Of a stretch of DNA of 34,726 bases, positions 27,831 through 34,726 are shown one piece after another. Location: NCBI GenBank assembly GCA_013694585.1, contig JACDCB010000123.1, positions 1-34,726 on the forward strand, written 5' to 3'. This stretch comes from Candidatus Nitrosopumilus sp. (GTDB lineage: Archaea; Thermoproteota; Nitrososphaeria; Nitrososphaerales; Nitrososphaeraceae). Position 1 is the first letter of the stretch. Every line of letters begins with the position of its first letter. The notes below the pieces were generated by a model. That model saw nothing but the letters and a program-made list of their open reading frames with translations, ran no database searches and was not told the origin of the DNA. Position numbers and translations under genes: made by a program.

Positions 27831-28804
27831 AAATCTGTAAATTCCTTGTAGTTCAAAATGCCGTTAGTGTCTTTTACAGGATTAATTTGTAGTATTGGTA
27901 AATCGATACCTATTTTTTTAAACCTTTTAATCTGGTTATTGCAATCATTTATAGAACCTGCTATGACAAAGTCATTAAGCATCTCATTGGGAATATTTCT
28001 AATTGACTCTTCTAGACCATACTTGCTGTAATCATTATAGATTTTTTCAACTACTGACTTGTATTTTGTTTTAATCAATGAATCATAGTAAATTCTGCCT
28101 ACTGATATATAAAAAGCCAAAGTCTTGGCAGCTCTGAGAGTAGCCTTTGTAGGATCTTTATTTGAAACGGAGGTGATAATTACAAGAGCTTTCATGAACT
28201 TTTGATTATGATTTTCAAAATTGATGTTCTCAATCACCATCTCTAACTCATCTTTTGGCTTTAGGTAGAGGATTACTCCATCTGCATACTTTTTAGCAAC
28301 GCCGATCATTCCTGAATTTACGGCTGCAACATAGATAGGAATATCATCCCTAGAGTGTTCAAGCAGCTTAAAATTTTTAATATTTACTGTTTGTCCATGA
28401 TAGTTAACTTTTTTCGACTTTAACAACAGTTTTATTGATTGAACATATTCTTTCATTCTGATTAATGGTTTTTCAAATTTGATCCCATGAAGGTTCTCCA
28501 CTAAGATAGAAGTGCTTGTGCCAAGGCCTATAATGGCTCGGTTATCTGATAGGTTATCCAATGTAATGCCGCCCATACTAATCGTCGCTGGAGTTCTAGA
28601 ATAGATGTTTACAATAGATGTTCCTATTTTTATTCTGTTTGTAACTTGGGAAATAGCCCCAAGGGTTGAAAAAACCTCCTTTCCCCAGGACTCTGGGGCC
28701 CAGATGGAATGAATACTTTCATTTTTGTCCACTATTGTTGCAAATTCGAGGATCTCTTTTGACTTTAATAATGATCCAATGCTAAATCCTATTTTTTCCA
28801 TCAT
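27821..28804 (-). CDS. Luciferase-like (F420/FMN-dependent) oxidoreductase
   Basis: A 327-residue TIM-barrel protein of the LLM class, which includes F420-dependent methylene-tetrahydromethanopterin reductase-like and FMN-dependent enzymes. Signs are GFSIGSLLKSKEILEFATIVD, IWAPESWGKEVFSTLGAISQ, IKIGTSIVNIYSRTPATISM and AIIGLGTSTSILVENLHG. It is cytoplasmic. Its ATGA overlaps the nucleotidyltransferase stop, and its 3' end overlaps the thiolase start, so it is firmly in this operon. F420 is the likelier cofactor in this lineage, by inference. Substrate unknown. Confidence 0.85.
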   Translation of the reverse strand: MMEKIGFSIGSLLKSKEILEFATIVDKNESIHSIWAPESWGKEVFSTLGAISQVTNRIKIGTSIVNIYSRTPATISMGGITLDNLSDNRAIIGLGTSTSILVENLHGIKFEKPLIRMKEYVQSIKLLLKSKKVNYHGQTVNIKNFKLLEHSRDDIPIYVAAVNSGMIGVAKKYADGVILYLKPKDELEMVIENINFENHNQKFMKALVIITSVSNKDPTKATLRAAKTLAFYISVGRIYYDSLIKTKYKSVVEKIYNDYSKYGLEESIRNIPNEMLNDFVIAGSINDCNNQIKRFKKIGIDLPILQINPVKDTNGILNYKEFTDLWK

Positions 28805-29496
28805 GCTTGTTTGGAATTTATCCTGGATAGCTCTTTGGATGATTCTTCGATATCTTTGTGGGAATCAATTGATTTCCAGAATGATTTTTCAAATTTCTTT
28901 GCTTTTAATTTTTGTTCGTTTGCCATGGCAGGCAGTGCTGTTGTTTCAATGTTTCCTTTATCGGGTAGGAAGTCGAAAATTTCTTGGTTAAAAAAATAAA
29001 TACCCGCATTGATCCATTTATCGATTATATTCGGTTTTTCTTTGAATCCAGTCACAAATTGCTGGTCATTAAAATCTACAATCCCAAAAGGGCTTTTTAA
29101 CGGAACCACTGCTATAGAGTTATAATCGTTCTTGTGAGATAGGATATTAAAATCTATGTTGGTTAATATATCGCCATTGATCATGAAGAAGCCATTTTTT
29201 TCATCCTTTAGAAGCGCTTGTGTGTTTTTCAGAGCGCCGCCGGTACCTAGTGGTTCCTCTTCTACCATATAGGCAACTTTGACCTTGAACTTGTTTCCAC
29301 TCGCAATATGATTTATGATTTGCTCCTTCAAATAGCCGACACAAATGATAATTTCTGTTATGTTATTTTTAGACAATAGCTTTATTTGCCACTCGATAAT
29401 GGGCTTACCTAGGATTTCTATCATCGGTTTCGGGCGGTTATCTGTGATCGGTTTAAGCCTTTTACCAAATCCCCCCGCTAATATTACTCCTTTCAA
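28801..29496 (-). CDS. Sugar-phosphate nucleotidyltransferase
   Basis: A 231-residue GT-A-like nucleotidyltransferase (RmlA/ManC/GlmU-N type) making an NDP-sugar from a sugar 1-phosphate. The N-terminal ILAGGFGKRLKPIT, RPKPMIEILGKPIIEW, PLGTGGAL and FMINGDILTNID are hallmark motifs. It lacks the C-terminal beta-helix of GlmU. The start is TTG, with TATA-like AAAAAATATATC about 30 nt upstream. It is the first gene of the operon with the flavin enzyme, thiolase and DUF35 protein. Confidence 0.88.
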   Translation of the reverse strand: MKGVILAGGFGKRLKPITDNRPKPMIEILGKPIIEWQIKLLSKNNITEIIICVGYLKEQIINHIASGNKFKVKVAYMVEEEPLGTGGALKNTQALLKDEKNGFFMINGDILTNIDFNILSHKNDYNSIAVVPLKSPFGIVDFNDQQFVTGFKEKPNIIDKWINAGIYFFNQEIFDFLPDKGNIETTALPAMANEQKLKAKKFEKSFWKSIDSHKDIEESSKELSRINSKQA

Positions 29497-29607
29497 AACA
29501 TATTAACTGATTTGATTTAAGATATATTTTTTCCTATTGTCGTCTTGAAAAAGGTTACCTATAACAGGAATTTACACTATACCTTGATAATTTGAATATA
29601 GTATCTA

Positions 29608-29650
29608 CTATTATGATAGTGTTATTACTATTATGATAGTGTTATTACTA
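29608..29650. repeat. 20-bp tandem direct repeat, two copies and a partial third
   Basis: CTATTATGATAGTGTTATTA occurs at 29608-29627 and again, identical, at 29628-29647, followed by CTA. Each unit contains the imperfect dyad ACTAT-TATG-ATAGT. It lies about 100 bases upstream of the nucleotidyltransferase operon start and could be a regulator site or a slippage product. Confidence 0.9.
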
Positions 29651-29664
29651 ACACAAAAGAAGAA

Positions 29665-29690
29665 TATTTCATAATTCGAATTATGAAATA
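29665..29690. repeat. 26-bp perfect palindrome (copy 1)
   Basis: The arms TATTTCATAATTC and GAATTATGAAATA are exact reverse complements with no loop. It lies 15 bases beyond the 3' end of bioF. A second copy with one mismatch ends the window. Possible roles are a DNA-binding site, an element end or a terminator-like signal. Confidence 0.9.
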
Positions 29691-29705
29691 ATATTGAAAA
29701 AAGGA

Positions 29706-30887
29706 TTAATTTCTTAGAAATTTGGCAATATGATTTAATAGCTCAGAGATCTGATCTTGGCTATGATCTGAATTTAGAGATATTCTTAAGCGCGCTTCAT
29801 TTCTTTTGACAGTGGGATATCTTATGGCTTGGACGAAGAAATCTTGTTTTAATAATTCCTTCGAAACTGCTAAGGCTTTTTTTTCAGACCCAATTAACAG
29901 CGGAATAATAGGACTATTTTCGATTTTTCGACTGTTAATTTTTTGTTCATTAGCTATTTTATGAAAATGCTCGATATTTCTGTACAACTTAGTCTGGAGA
30001 ATCCCTCCCTTTGCTAATTGCATTGACATCATAGCTATTTCGGCCAAATAATCTGGAAGAGCAGAAGTGAAGATAAACGGTCTGGATTTATTAACTAAAT
30101 ATTCTTTTACCAACTTCGAACAGCTAACATAGCCTCCAAAGCAACCAAGTCCTTTACTCAGACTACTGGTATGAATATCTACCCTTTTGTTAACTCCAAA
30201 ATAACTCGGAGTTCCTCCAAAATCCGTTAACTTATTGTTACCAATAATAAAATCTCCATGTGAGTCGTCAACTATGAGTAAGCAATTATTTTCTGCTGAT
30301 ATCCTCGCAATTTCAGTTAAATCAGCCATATCGCCGTCCATGCTAAAGATTCCTTCAGTTATTATTATTTTTCTTTTGTCATCATACTTTTTTACAGTCT
30401 TTTCTAATTCAATCGTATCATTGTGAGGGAATCGCTGAATTTTACTGGGAGACAACTTGCAGCCATCTATTATGCTCGCATGATTTAATTCATCGCTAAA
30501 AATAATAGTTTCCTTATCAGAGATACATCCTAGGACTCCTAAATTTGCCATGAATCCTGTTGGAAAGAGCAATGATGAGGTAGTTTTCCTATGCTTTGAA
30601 AGAGCTTTCTCTAGGCCTTCTATGCTTTCTGTATTTCCGCTAATTAATCTCGAGCTACATTGTGAAATTCTTGTAGTATGTAGATTCTGTAACTTTTTTA
30701 CTAAAAATTTGTTCCTAGATAAACCAAGATAGTCATTTGATGAAAAATTCAATACAGAAGACGCATGGGTTCCTTTTCCTGACTCTAGGATATCTTCAAC
30801 AGTTCGGAGCTCTCTATAAAGATGTTCCTTTCTTAAATCTCGTAACTTGTCTTGAAAATATAGTGAATTACTTTTGTTTAAGCCCAA
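29706..30887 (-). CDS. bioF: 8-amino-7-oxononanoate synthase
   Basis: A 393-residue PLP enzyme that condenses pimeloyl thioester with alanine in biotin synthesis. Family segments are VLNFSSNDYLGLSRN, SSRLISGNTESIEGLEKAL, VDDSHGDFIIG (PLP-binding Asp) and SSLSKGLGCFGGYVS with the PLP lysine. The start is TTG, 20 bases inside the end of bioB, so both genes share one message. In this family the related enzyme KBL acts on threonine breakdown, but the bioB and bioA context favours biotin. Confidence 0.94.
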   Translation of the reverse strand: MGLNKSNSLYFQDKLRDLRKEHLYRELRTVEDILESGKGTHASSVLNFSSNDYLGLSRNKFLVKKLQNLHTTRISQCSSRLISGNTESIEGLEKALSKHRKTTSSLLFPTGFMANLGVLGCISDKETIIFSDELNHASIIDGCKLSPSKIQRFPHNDTIELEKTVKKYDDKRKIIITEGIFSMDGDMADLTEIARISAENNCLLIVDDSHGDFIIGNNKLTDFGGTPSYFGVNKRVDIHTSSLSKGLGCFGGYVSCSKLVKEYLVNKSRPFIFTSALPDYLAEIAMMSMQLAKGGILQTKLYRNIEHFHKIANEQKINSRKIENSPIIPLLIGSEKKALAVSKELLKQDFFVQAIRYPTVKRNEARLRISLNSDHSQDQISELLNHIAKFLRN

Positions 30888-31848
30888 TCTCTTTTAGCAT
30901 TCTAATGTCATCAAGAGGTTTATTTCCTTTTGTAGTCAAGTATCCCCCACTAATAATTCCATTAGCACCTGCTTTTAGTACTTTCTTATCATTCTTTTTT
31001 AAATGAACTTCTCTCCCTCCTGCAATTTTTAAAATGGTTTTAGGCATGAGAAAGCGAAATGTTGCAATTGTCCTAATTATTTCCTCTTCAGTCAGCGAAT
31101 ACTTGTTATAGAGTGGAGTGCCCTCTCTGCCTATTAACATGTTTATAGGGACTTCGTCAGGATTCAATGATTGTAAAGCGAAACCTAACTCTACTCTATG
31201 TTCGACGGATTCTCCCATACCAATAATTCCACCACTACACAACTCTAATCCCGCTTCTTTAACTATTTTAGCAGTATTAATCCTATCTTCGTAAGAATGG
31301 GTAGTACAAATCTGATCGAACAAACTTTTCGCCGTTTCTAAATTATGATTATATCTTTTAACTCCTAATCTCTTTAATATTATGGCCCTAGCTCTAGTCA
31401 TAAAACCCAAAGAGGTGTTAACATCTATGTCCAGCCTTTCTTTTATTAACTTTATAGTATTGCATATTTGAATAAAATCTTGTTCTGGGGGAGCCCGGTA
31501 AGCACAAACTATACAAAAACTATTTGCCCCATTTTCCTTTGCTGATTCAGCTTGTGCTAAAATCATCTCCGGGGTCAATAGGGGATATTTTTCGATTTTG
31601 GTGGTATTAAACGTCGATTGAGAGCAAAAAGAACAATCTTCTGGGCATCTGCCAGATTTTGCATTAACTAGGGTTTCAACATCAACTTTGTCGCCCCCGA
31701 ATTTCAATGTAATTTGATTTGCACAATCAGCAAGGAAATCAAGATCATTAGAATTAATTAATTTCATTGCATCCTGAAAATTAATTGGTTTATCTGATAA
31801 AACGTTAAACATTTTTTCATAAATAAAGTCCTTATTCAAATTGCTCAT
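30868..31848 (-). CDS. bioB: Biotin synthase
   Basis: A 326-residue radical-SAM enzyme that inserts sulfur into dethiobiotin. The cluster motif is Cys68-x3-Cys72-x2-Cys75 (GRCPEDCSFCSQS), followed by FCIVCAYRAPPEQDF, YNHNLETAKSLFDQICTTHS and CSGGIIGMGESVEHR. It also needs the auxiliary iron-sulfur cluster. TATA-like TAATATAAG lies about 25-30 nt before the ATG. It is the first gene of the bioB-bioF unit. Ahead of it lies an unusual hairpin region and, divergently, a serine recombinase. Confidence 0.96.
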   Translation of the reverse strand: MSNLNKDFIYEKMFNVLSDKPINFQDAMKLINSNDLDFLADCANQITLKFGGDKVDVETLVNAKSGRCPEDCSFCSQSTFNTTKIEKYPLLTPEMILAQAESAKENGANSFCIVCAYRAPPEQDFIQICNTIKLIKERLDIDVNTSLGFMTRARAIILKRLGVKRYNHNLETAKSLFDQICTTHSYEDRINTAKIVKEAGLELCSGGIIGMGESVEHRVELGFALQSLNPDEVPINMLIGREGTPLYNKYSLTEEEIIRTIATFRFLMPKTILKIAGGREVHLKKNDKKVLKAGANGIISGGYLTTKGNKPLDDIRMLKEIGLKQK

Positions 31849-32099
31849 TAGATAATTCTTTTTCTATAATAACTTCCTTATATTAGTATTTTAGAATATC
31901 CATATAGGTCTGTCAAAAGCGGAATTCGTCTGAATTGTAGTAATAATGATTCGTCTAAAAAAGGACCGGTTTTCATACCGTCTTAGAACCAGACCGGTTT
32001 TTTTACTCTAGTTTTTTGGGTTTTTGTATTAATTTTTTTTAATACTTGCTCGTATTAATTTGACTACCTTTTTTTTACTCTCAATTTTGTATCGTCTTT
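31849..32099. promoter_or_regulatory. Divergent region between bioB and the serine recombinase, with repeats
   Basis: This 251-base region holds the bioB promoter, an imperfect CCGG hairpin and several small repeats. ATTCGTCT occurs at 31924-31931 and 31949-31956, 25 bases apart. GTATTAA occurs at about 32026 and 32052, with the inverse TTAATAC at about 32039. The recombinase TATA element is probably in the GTATTAATTT near 32052. Confidence 0.5.
31957..32004. repeat. Imperfect hairpin with repeated ACCGGT and flanking A/T runs
   Basis: AAAAAAGGACCGGT at 31957-31970 faces ACCGGTTTTTTT at 31993-32004. The A-run pairs with the T-run and the self-complementary ACCGGT cores pair with each other, with a 2-base bulge. 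GACCGGTTTT is also a direct repeat about 29 bases apart. Its CCGG cores stand out in very AT-rich DNA. It could be a terminator, or a recombination site for the adjacent recombinase. Confidence 0.6.
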
Positions 32100-32696
32100 A
32101 TGAAATATGCGTTTGCTTACTTACGAGTAAGTACGGAAGAACAAACTGTATTGAATCAGAAAATAGCAATGCAAGGGTGGGCTCAGTCACATGATTTTCA
32201 GATCTTGGATTATTTCGAGGACTCTTCAATTAGCGGAAAAACAGCGGCAATTGGCCGAAAGGGATTCCAAGAACTATTAAAAATAGTAGCATTAGAATCT
32301 GTCGATGCAGTTTTGGTCTACGAACTATCAAGGGTGGGTCGTACTTTCTGGGATACCCTAGAAGCTATTAAGGCTATTGAACAGTATTCCCCCTTAATCT
32401 CATGCTCTCCCAGAGAGACTTTTCTTCAAACAACTGAACCAAGCATCAGAAAGCTTATGCTGGGCATTTTGACATGGGTCGCAGAACGCGAAAGAGAGCT
32501 ATTAGTTCAAAGAACCAAAGACGGCATTATCAGAGCTAAATCGGTGGGAAAACATATAGGAAGGCCTAAAAAAGAATTGAATACTTCTGACTTAATTAGT
32601 CACCTTTCTCAAAATAAATCTAAATTAAGAATTGCGAAGGAATTAGGAGTTTCTAAAGCAACACTGTATAAAAATTTAAGAAAGCTTGCCCACTAA
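32100..32696 (+). CDS. Serine recombinase (resolvase/invertase family)
   Basis: A 198-residue site-specific recombinase of the small serine type (Hin/Gin/Tn3 resolvase). The catalytic Ser11 is in AYLRVSTEEQ, with arginines in YELSRVGRT and the GRKGFQELL helix also typical. A C-terminal helix-turn-helix (LRIAKELGVSKATLYKNLRK) reads DNA, preceded by the GRPKK linker. The frame is intact. It lies between bioB and bioA; its last 4 bases overlap the convergent bioA stop. No transposase is present, so it could be a resident recombinase acting on nearby sites or the remnant of a mobile element. Confidence 0.93.
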   Translation: MKYAFAYLRVSTEEQTVLNQKIAMQGWAQSHDFQILDYFEDSSISGKTAAIGRKGFQELLKIVALESVDAVLVYELSRVGRTFWDTLEAIKAIEQYSPLISCSPRETFLQTTEPSIRKLMLGILTWVAERERELLVQRTKDGIIRAKSVGKHIGRPKKELNTSDLISHLSQNKSKLRIAKELGVSKATLYKNLRKLAH

Positions 32697-34024
32697 CTAA
32701 CATTTCTTTTGTTAATATCTAAAACAATCTCCAATTGAGTATCCATTATTTTATTTAGAGAATGTGAGTCTATGGCTAAAGGCGGTATAACTATCATTGT
32801 AGCTCCTAGAGATCTCAGTAGGACCCCCCTCTTGAGTGATTCTCTCATAACAAAATAGTTAATGGGAATTTTATCCACAATGGTAATGGGTTTACCATTC
32901 ACTGCAAGTTCAAATCCAGCTAATAATCCTTTCGCTCTGATATTTTGTACAATTGGAATGGATTGAAATTCTTGCAACCTCTTCCTAAGTTGTTTGCTAT
33001 TTGATTTGATCTTGCCCAGCAGATTATTTTCTTTGTACATTTTTAGATTTTCAATAACAGCAGTGCAACCAATAGGATGTCCAGCATAAGTGTGACCGTG
33101 AAATAGGTGTTTTTGATCTCCTAAAGCGCCAGAAAATTGTTGGAATATTTTTTTGGAAGTTAATGTGAGGGCTAACGGAAAATAACCACCCGTGATTGCT
33201 TTACCAAAACATGCTATGTCGGGAACGCTTTCTTGGGCTACGTATTCTATCATATTTCCAAGTCGTCCAAACCCCGTTGCAATTTCATCTAAAATAAACA
33301 AGATGTTATGCTTTTTGCACATTTCTTTTATTCTGTTTTGATAATTAGTTGGGTAAATATTGACGCCTCCAGCCAATTGAGCACCGCTCTCCATTATTAG
33401 TGCAGCAGTTTTATCGGCATTTTTTTCAATTATCTTCTCTGTCTTTTCTAACAATAGATTTAACTTTTCTGAATTAACTATTCCATTTAGGGTTACCCTT
33501 TTAGGACTCGGAATTACATGACATTTCAATAACAACCTTTTATAACTCTTAAAGTATTTGTCAACATAACCTACCGACATCGCTCCAATAGTATCACCGT
33601 GGTAACCATCAGCAATTGACAAAAATGAAGTTTTCTTCATATTCCCTTGGTTACTCCAATATTGTAAAGCAATTTTTAGAGCAGCTTCTATAGCAGAAGA
33701 ACCATTATCCGTGAAAAACACTTTGTTCAGGCCCTTCGTCAATTTTAAGAATTCATTTGAAAGCTCGATTGATTTATCATTTCCTAATCCAAAAATAGTT
33801 GAGTGTGGTATTTGTTTAATTTGGTTGATCATTGCAATCGTAATCCGATTACTATTAAATCCCCAAACATTGCACCACATATTGGAAATTCCGTCAAGGT
33901 ATTTGTTACCATCATTATCATAAAAATAAAAGTCTCTTCCCGATCTGATAACTCTCCTCTTGAGATATTTGGTGTAATCATGCATTTGTGTATAAGGATA
34001 CCATATGTTGTCACTTTTTGACAA
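32693..34024 (-). CDS. bioA: Adenosylmethionine-8-amino-7-oxononanoate aminotransferase
   Basis: A 443-residue class III aminotransferase that uses S-adenosylmethionine to make 7,8-diaminopelargonate. DNIWYPYTQMHDY at the N-terminus, ISNMWCNVWGF, FTDNGSSAIEAALK, LDEIATGFGRLG (Asp246) and ACFGKAITGGYFP (PLP Lys275) are BioA hallmarks, and HGHTYAGHPIGCTA is near residue 310. The start is TTG. It is on the same strand as bioB-bioF but separated from them by the recombinase gene, so it needs its own promoter. Confidence 0.95.
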   Translation of the reverse strand: MSKSDNIWYPYTQMHDYTKYLKRRVIRSGRDFYFYDNDGNKYLDGISNMWCNVWGFNSNRITIAMINQIKQIPHSTIFGLGNDKSIELSNEFLKLTKGLNKVFFTDNGSSAIEAALKIALQYWSNQGNMKKTSFLSIADGYHGDTIGAMSVGYVDKYFKSYKRLLLKCHVIPSPKRVTLNGIVNSEKLNLLLEKTEKIIEKNADKTAALIMESGAQLAGGVNIYPTNYQNRIKEMCKKHNILFILDEIATGFGRLGNMIEYVAQESVPDIACFGKAITGGYFPLALTLTSKKIFQQFSGALGDQKHLFHGHTYAGHPIGCTAVIENLKMYKENNLLGKIKSNSKQLRKRLQEFQSIPIVQNIRAKGLLAGFELAVNGKPITIVDKIPINYFVMRESLKRGVLLRSLGATMIVIPPLAIDSHSLNKIMDTQLEIVLDINKRNVS

Positions 34025-34121
34025 ATATAGATAACCTATCCTTGTGTTGATTAATAAATTCTTTATCTTTCTATTCTTGAAATATATATTGATAGTCTGT
34101 TAATGTAAACTGCTAACCTAA
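34025..34121. promoter_or_regulatory. Divergent promoter between bioA and the terminal orphan
   Basis: 97 AT-rich bases. On the plus strand AAATATATATTG at 34080-34091 lies about 30 nt before the ATG at 34122. On the minus strand, TTTATTAATC near 34048-34060 is suitably placed for the bioA TTG. Sharing suggests co-regulation of the orphan with biotin genes, which is inference. Confidence 0.45.
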
Positions 34122-34685
34122 ATGGATGTAAAGGAATTATTATACTCCGAAATCGATCAACTTGGTATAGATTTTATCAAAACAAAAATTAAAAATAACA
34201 TTCTGAACTCAGAGTACATAATCAAACAAATATTTGAAGAATGTGCTAAATCAAGAGGTGCTCAGAATCTATCTCCTTCTGATTATATCTCCTTAGCTGA
34301 AGCTTTGATGCATTACTTACTTGCAATTACTATAACACCGTCACAGAGGAAAATTAATATAAATAAAACTGAAGTCAGCATTCTTGTTCCGGGTGCCAGC
34401 GGTTTAAAAAATGGTGGAGATAAAGTGCTAATTATTCAATTTCTAAAGGGAGGTAAAGTTGAATATGAGCATACTGTCAGCGATTTGTTAAAAATACAAC
34501 CAACTCTCGATAATATATGGTTAGTCTCATACTGCCCTGTAATAACCCTATTCCCGCTGAAAAATTTTGTTATTAATAGTGCGTCAAATGGAACAAAAAA
34601 GCTTGCACAACCATTTTCACAATTGATGATTCAAATAAATGACTTTCTCGATCGGATTAATTATTCCGGTTTTCGCATTCTCTAA
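34122..34685 (+). CDS. Unknown protein divergent from bioA
   Basis: A 187-residue soluble protein I do not recognise. The N-terminal half is helical (LLYSEIDQLGIDFIKTKIKNN ... DYISLAEALMHYLLAI), the C-terminal half looks alpha/beta (KTEVSILVPGASGLKNGGDKVLIIQFLKG, then LDNIWLVSYCPVI). The pairing of a helical part with a strand-rich KVLIIQF part is reminiscent of nuclease-like or regulator folds, but no catalytic motif can be claimed. It is followed 16 bases later by the second palindrome copy. Its location beside bioA makes a biotin-linked role worth testing. Confidence 0.6.
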   Translation: MDVKELLYSEIDQLGIDFIKTKIKNNILNSEYIIKQIFEECAKSRGAQNLSPSDYISLAEALMHYLLAITITPSQRKININKTEVSILVPGASGLKNGGDKVLIIQFLKGGKVEYEHTVSDLLKIQPTLDNIWLVSYCPVITLFPLKNFVINSASNGTKKLAQPFSQLMIQINDFLDRINYSGFRIL

Positions 34686-34701
34686 GACAGGTATCTATTG
34701 A

Positions 34702-34726
34702 TATTTCATAATTCGAATTTTGAAAT
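34702..34726. repeat. Second copy of the palindrome, cut by window end
   Basis: Positions 34702-34726 match 29665-29689 in 24 of 25 bases, with one A-to-T change in the right arm. The window ends before the last base, so the full right border is unknown. It lies just downstream of the orphan gene, as copy 1 lies just downstream of bioF. Confidence 0.85.

Follow-up and report, generated by a model that had tools for sequence, protein, structure and literature searches.

A clade-wide candidate DNA-binding site of ammonia-oxidising archaea clusters in the terminus-ward chromosome, close to the gene of a small basic protein

Two near-identical palindromes flank a block of biotin genes in the 34,726-nucleotide stretch of DNA analysed here (the window). 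On solid grounds, they are two copies of a clade-wide candidate DNA-binding site of ammonia-oxidising archaea (AOA). We see an even chance that this site is bound by a dimer of orf109, a protein encoded next to one of the copies, and that its one to five clustered copies act as a centromere- or terminus-like landmark. Of the three readings offered by the first-pass annotation of this DNA, namely element ends, crossover sites of a recombinase and binding sites of a regulator, the binding site has held up and the other two have not. The motif was not described in the literature that was searched, a search for which subscription papers and preprints were mostly out of reach.

Both palindromes are as first described. 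Copy 1, TATTTCATAATTCGAATTATGAAATA, is a perfect 26-bp palindrome at 29665-29690, 15 bp from the bioF stop at 29706. As a 28-bp motif it spans 29664..29691, between the 3' end of bioF and an NTP-transferase gene, and scores 34.7 bits. A 20-bp unit, attatgatagtgttattact, occurs in two tandem copies just upstream of it (window 29600-29650). Copy 2 (34701..34726) matches at 24 of 25 positions (34702-34726) at the very end of the window and runs on into contig C163; it lies 16 bp past a gene for a 187-aa orphan protein, and orf109 starts 20 bp beyond it. Neither copy is assigned a strand. The number of such palindromes expected by chance in the window is 0.00, and in a motif scan no other position in the rest of the window than copy 1 exceeded 5 bits. 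When the whole genome, which is Ca. Nitrosocosmicus-like (G000, 280 contigs), was searched with up to three mismatches, the sole extra match was C163:47182-47205. The window contig, C85, ends in 127 bp (34600..34726, no strand) that exactly match the end of C163 in reverse complement; a k=127 assembly graph leaves such an overlap of fixed length. Because the two ends overlap, the match in C163 is copy 2 again, which reads GATATTTCATAATTCGAATTTTGAAATATAG across the join; because the contigs abut, the genome holds exactly two copies. Thus, the suggestion that a multicopy repeat had broken the assembly fails. C85 and C163 can be joined into about 82 kb of continuous sequence. Beyond the join lies orf109 (109 aa), followed by a convergent gene for a CdvB1/B2 (ESCRT-III) paralogue.

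The motif, ATATTTCWAAAYTCGARTTTWGAAATAT, is about 28 bp long and holds about 36 bits (column sum over 171 unique sites). The scores of true sites are 18-42 bits. No position in a further 800 kb of AOA DNA reaches 10 bits, so a graded tail of weaker sites, as in a regulon, is lacking. For genome searches a relaxed core, TTTCNNAANTCGANTTNNGAAA, was used. Of 250 genomes of the order, 161 contain it, mainly in the family of the window itself (f1, Nitrososphaeraceae) and in families f2 (Nitrosocaldaceae), f3 and f9, and complete f9 genomes have 1-5 copies each. The relaxed core without mismatch occurs in 72 of 398 genomes of the phylum, all of which belong to f1, f2 or f9. Overall, nearly all genomes of the four AOA families searched have the motif, and some 320 further genomes of the phylum lack it. 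At the variable symmetric positions, the two halves are complementary in just 55-65% of sites, which is near independence. Half-sites that vary almost independently fit binding by a protein dimer rather than an RNA stem.

The sites are clustered on the chromosome. Most genomes carry 2-5 copies, and in complete genomes all listed sites fall within 1-22 kb. They are intergenic in 81 of 83 cases, in DNA that is 85% coding. Most clusters have the end of the S10/spc ribosomal-protein operon on one side and the orf109/cdvB/bio genes on the other. The immediate neighbours vary by family (bioF/ntp; radical SAM; DUF2299/PNPOx; the end of a ribosomal protein gene), and some sites lie just past stop codons, others before starts. 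With orc1/cdc6 taken as the origin, by analogy with N. maritimus (PMC5797428), the cluster position is terminus-ward: the distance from cluster to orc1/cdc6 is 0.397-0.486 of the chromosome (mean 0.455, sd 0.024; 12 genomes of 1.6-3.4 Mb), compared with a mean of 0.221 (sd 0.086) for rpoB. In G088, the strand-corrected third-position T/A skew flips first at cdc6 and a second time near 754 kb, the latter 58 kb away from the cluster. The change of skew in G044 is diffuse and noisy, at 840-1040 kb with the cluster at 907 kb, and the skew of G037 is flat and uninformative. An exact terminus was rejected on the 58-kb offset in G088, and origin boxes were rejected on the distance of about 0.45 of the chromosome from orc1/cdc6. 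The terminus-ward position could reflect hitch-hiking with the adjoining ribosomal-protein operon; the single site of G211 is 226 kb away from that operon.

The candidate binder is orf109, which occurs in the same families as the palindrome; 146 of the 250 order genomes carry it, each with a single copy (one of the 146 being a spurious fragment). All genomes with a full orf109 match also have a palindrome match; that of G246 is doubtful, and the palindrome-like matches of this genome were set aside since they lie inside a long ORF. At most f1, f2 and f3 loci, a palindrome is located 16-50 bp upstream of the orf109 start, and in Nitrosotalea types one palindrome overlaps the start codon. About 11 kb separates the cluster from orf109 in most Nitrosopumilus genomes, and 140 kb in G194. 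The protein is basic (pI 10), and its AlphaFold model (pLDDT 88.6) shows an all-alpha fold whose C-terminus is HTH-like (helices 76-86 and 90-104). Searches of the PDB by sequence and by fold gave no match to orf109, and searches of Pfam and NCBIfam gave no family match, with only sub-threshold matches to Pfam HTH families. Nitrosocosmicus has Y and f2 has H at residue 94, which lies in the last helix, the predicted recognition helix. Where residue 94 is Y or H, position 4 of the half-site is A in 49 of 50 half-sites; where it is S, position 4 is T in 144, A in 126 and C in 6. As it comes from two lineages, this covariation is suggestive. We infer that orf109 is probably the binder of the site.

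The block between the palindromes consists of bioF, bioB, an intact serine recombinase, bioA and the 187-aa orphan. The genes bioF (8-amino-7-oxononanoate synthase; 29706..30887, minus strand; TIGR00858, E 6.8e-103, under the model cut-off) and bioB (biotin synthase; 30868..31848, minus strand; TIGR00433, E 1.5e-113, above cut-off) are followed by the recombinase (198 aa; 32100..32696, plus strand; PF00239, E 1.1e-30), bioA (32693..34024, minus strand; TIGR00508, E 2e-128, above cut-off) and the orphan (34122..34685, plus strand). The orphan has no Pfam match and is fast-evolving; it is syntenic in Nitrosocosmicus and 36-90% identical in relatives. On the other side of copy 1 is the sugar-nucleotide (NTP) transferase gene (28801..29496, minus strand; PF00483, E 9.2e-42), whose upstream region contains this copy. 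A direct repeat, gaccggtttt, with T-runs lies between bioB and the recombinase (window 31960-32010). Nitrosocosmicus relatives keep the whole order: ntp, palindrome, bioF, bioB, recombinase, bioA, orphan, palindrome, orf109, cdvB. In these genomes about 5.02-5.04 kb separates the palindrome copies, and the orientation and content of the block are constant; an invertible block was rejected on this constant orientation. The block is therefore syntenic in relatives, which speaks against mobility, and the palindromes are present alongside it. The serine recombinase occurs once per Nitrososphaeraceae genome, in the same place in several genera, and is absent from all 13 Nitrosopumilaceae genomes tested. 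Its motifs look intact, its place between bioB and bioA is the same across genera of Nitrososphaeraceae, and it is more conserved than bioB. It is a resident gene and not the partner of the palindrome. The tie of the palindromes to biotin genes is a local accident of this family. A biotin-regulon operator of the BirA/BioR/BioQ type was also rejected, since only g7, g12 and f3 have the site in front of bioB or bioA, and its neighbours elsewhere are unrelated.

The site is also found outside chromosomes. A scan of 2.9 million viral contigs (IMG/VR) with a stricter motif returned 11 records, each 4.09-4.44 kb long and circular by its direct terminal repeats, with a single site per record. Together with their relatives they form a family of 26 circular genomes of 4.0-4.4 kb (L256-L266, L288-L302), in which 11 members carry a site of 24-39 bits and 15 have no trace of one. 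The family has about nine conserved small genes, including one for a conserved, structural-looking protein of 127 aa. No recognised replication or integration gene was seen in the member scanned, and the conserved protein was not found in 400 genomes of the order or in phage records. These elements may be tiny AOA viruses or plasmids, and the motif is a sequence tag that may tie such uncultured 4-kb circles to AOA hosts. In clade 1 the site is located between two divergent starts and in clade 2 in a 3' region. These positions are not homologous, indicating that the site was gained at least twice. Capture that is independent of position favours a maintenance function over an operator.

The main rival has a local transcription regulator, be it orf109 or a different protein, using the site as an operator to repress its own gene and a few neighbours. 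Copies in the orf109 promoter in three families are consistent with this, as are copies that precede bioB by 62-77 bp in Nitrososphaera-type and g7 genomes, a copy about 90 bp upstream of bioA in f3, a copy at about the expected CdvB promoter in Nitrosotalea types, and the site between divergent starts in clade-1 elements. However, the neighbour genes change from family to family, many copies lie 5-30 bp past stop codons or between convergent genes, the clade-2 elements carry theirs in a 3' region, and the genome has no other site and no weak sites. We therefore consider an operator rather unlikely. An insulator, a terminator or another sequence-intrinsic element that has no dedicated binding protein would account for an AT-rich palindrome that often follows stop codons directly, but its half-sites lack the covariation of an RNA stem, its information content is far too high, and it occurs at one locus only and also before starts. 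Such an element is highly improbable, even more so than the recombination site considered below.

Readings that involve recombination are also poorly compatible with the distribution of the site. A recombination or dimer-resolution (dif-like) site, used by a tyrosine or serine recombinase, with the serine recombinase of the window as the enzyme here, would agree with a symmetric, terminus-ward site of 26-28 bp with the dif-like outline CATAA-N6-TTATG, with one resident serine recombinase per Nitrososphaeraceae genome, and with capture by small circular elements, as is the case for Xer-exploiting elements. Yet PF00239 was found in 0 of 13 Nitrosopumilaceae genomes, several copies would lead to loss or inversion of the 5-kb block that is constant in Nitrosocosmicus, and the elements are found as free circles whose conserved protein is not seen in the 400 genomes. 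This reading is highly improbable. The complete AOA genomes G121, G211 and G246 gave no match to the tyrosine recombinase family PF00589, and G121 and G211 have the palindrome. In all three, neither a tyrosine nor a serine recombinase was matched. Hence, crossover sites do not hold as a general explanation, because the Nitrosopumilaceae genomes tested lack PF00239 and G121 and G211 keep the palindrome while also lacking PF00589. Two known kinds of site were rejected on the same data: Xer/dif, whose cognate tyrosine recombinase is missing in G121 and G211 and whose single site contrasts with the 2-5 copies here, and a hix/res-type crossover site of a serine recombinase, the enzyme being missing in all 13 Nitrosopumilaceae genomes with a PF00239 search. 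That the palindromes are the ends of a mobile biotin element was suggested by near-identical copies around a block with a recombinase. Nitrosocosmicus keeps both the synteny and the orientation of the block together with both palindromes, each genome has only two copies, and other families carry palindromes without the block, so this idea has next to no chance of being right.

We return to a landmark bound by orf109. A role of the site in chromosome maintenance is about evenly balanced in our judgement. An orf109 dimer would bind each site, and the one to five clustered complexes would mark a single chromosomal region far from the origin. The marked region might then be organised or segregated in a manner like that of parS/SegB or matS, and the function of the cluster might be coupled to Cdv (ESCRT-III) division. 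The site in the orf109 promoter would also allow orf109 to feed back on its own expression. As a whole, we tentatively propose, at somewhat less than even confidence, that the palindrome cluster and orf109 constitute a chromosome-segregation or terminus-organising system of AOA that is coupled to Cdv/ESCRT-III and hijacked by tiny circular viruses or plasmids. A cis site and a linked candidate binder beside an ESCRT-III division gene make chromosome segregation in AOA directly testable.

Known systems resemble this arrangement in part. SegAB has been described in Crenarchaea and Euryarchaea, and these sources (PMC5120986, PMC7617429, PMC11381335) describe no segregation system for AOA. Like SegAB of Sulfolobales (PMC5120986, PMC11381335), the AOA system would involve a small archaeal DNA-binding protein, for which orf109 with its 109 aa is the candidate, palindromic sites of which one is just upstream of the operon of the binder, and archaeal chromosome maintenance. 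Unlike in SegAB, no segA neighbour was recognised at the AOA loci, the cluster is far from the origin, and orf109 is predicted to be helical with an HTH-like C-terminus and no PDB match. As in bacterial ParB-parS, a few high-information palindromes cluster in one region near a candidate binder gene, and the sites are intergenic and independent of the adjoining genes. A few near-identical sites in one region, as expected of parS, are indeed seen in complete genomes (1-22 kb), whereas orf109 has no ParB-like domain, the AOA cluster is origin-distal and no ParA was identified. Searches of Pfam, NCBIfam and the PDB did not place orf109 among ParB-family (ParBc/HTH) or SegB-family binders. The parS and SegB sites known so far are found close to origins or to their own operon. 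MatP-matS and dif share with the AOA site a symmetric sequence in the terminus-ward chromosome, a dif-like half-site outline and a possible link to division. There are about 20 copies of matS over 800 kb and one of dif, whereas the AOA site has 1-5 copies within 22 kb, and several genomes that carry it are without an Xer-type recombinase.

In unrelated genera, palindromes repeatedly occur in pairs whose starts are about 60-81 bp apart (L191, L199, L203, L205, L213, L226, L228, L247, L252), and pairs of this spacing are also found at several Nitrosopumilaceae loci. The recurrent pairing may reflect cooperative binding.
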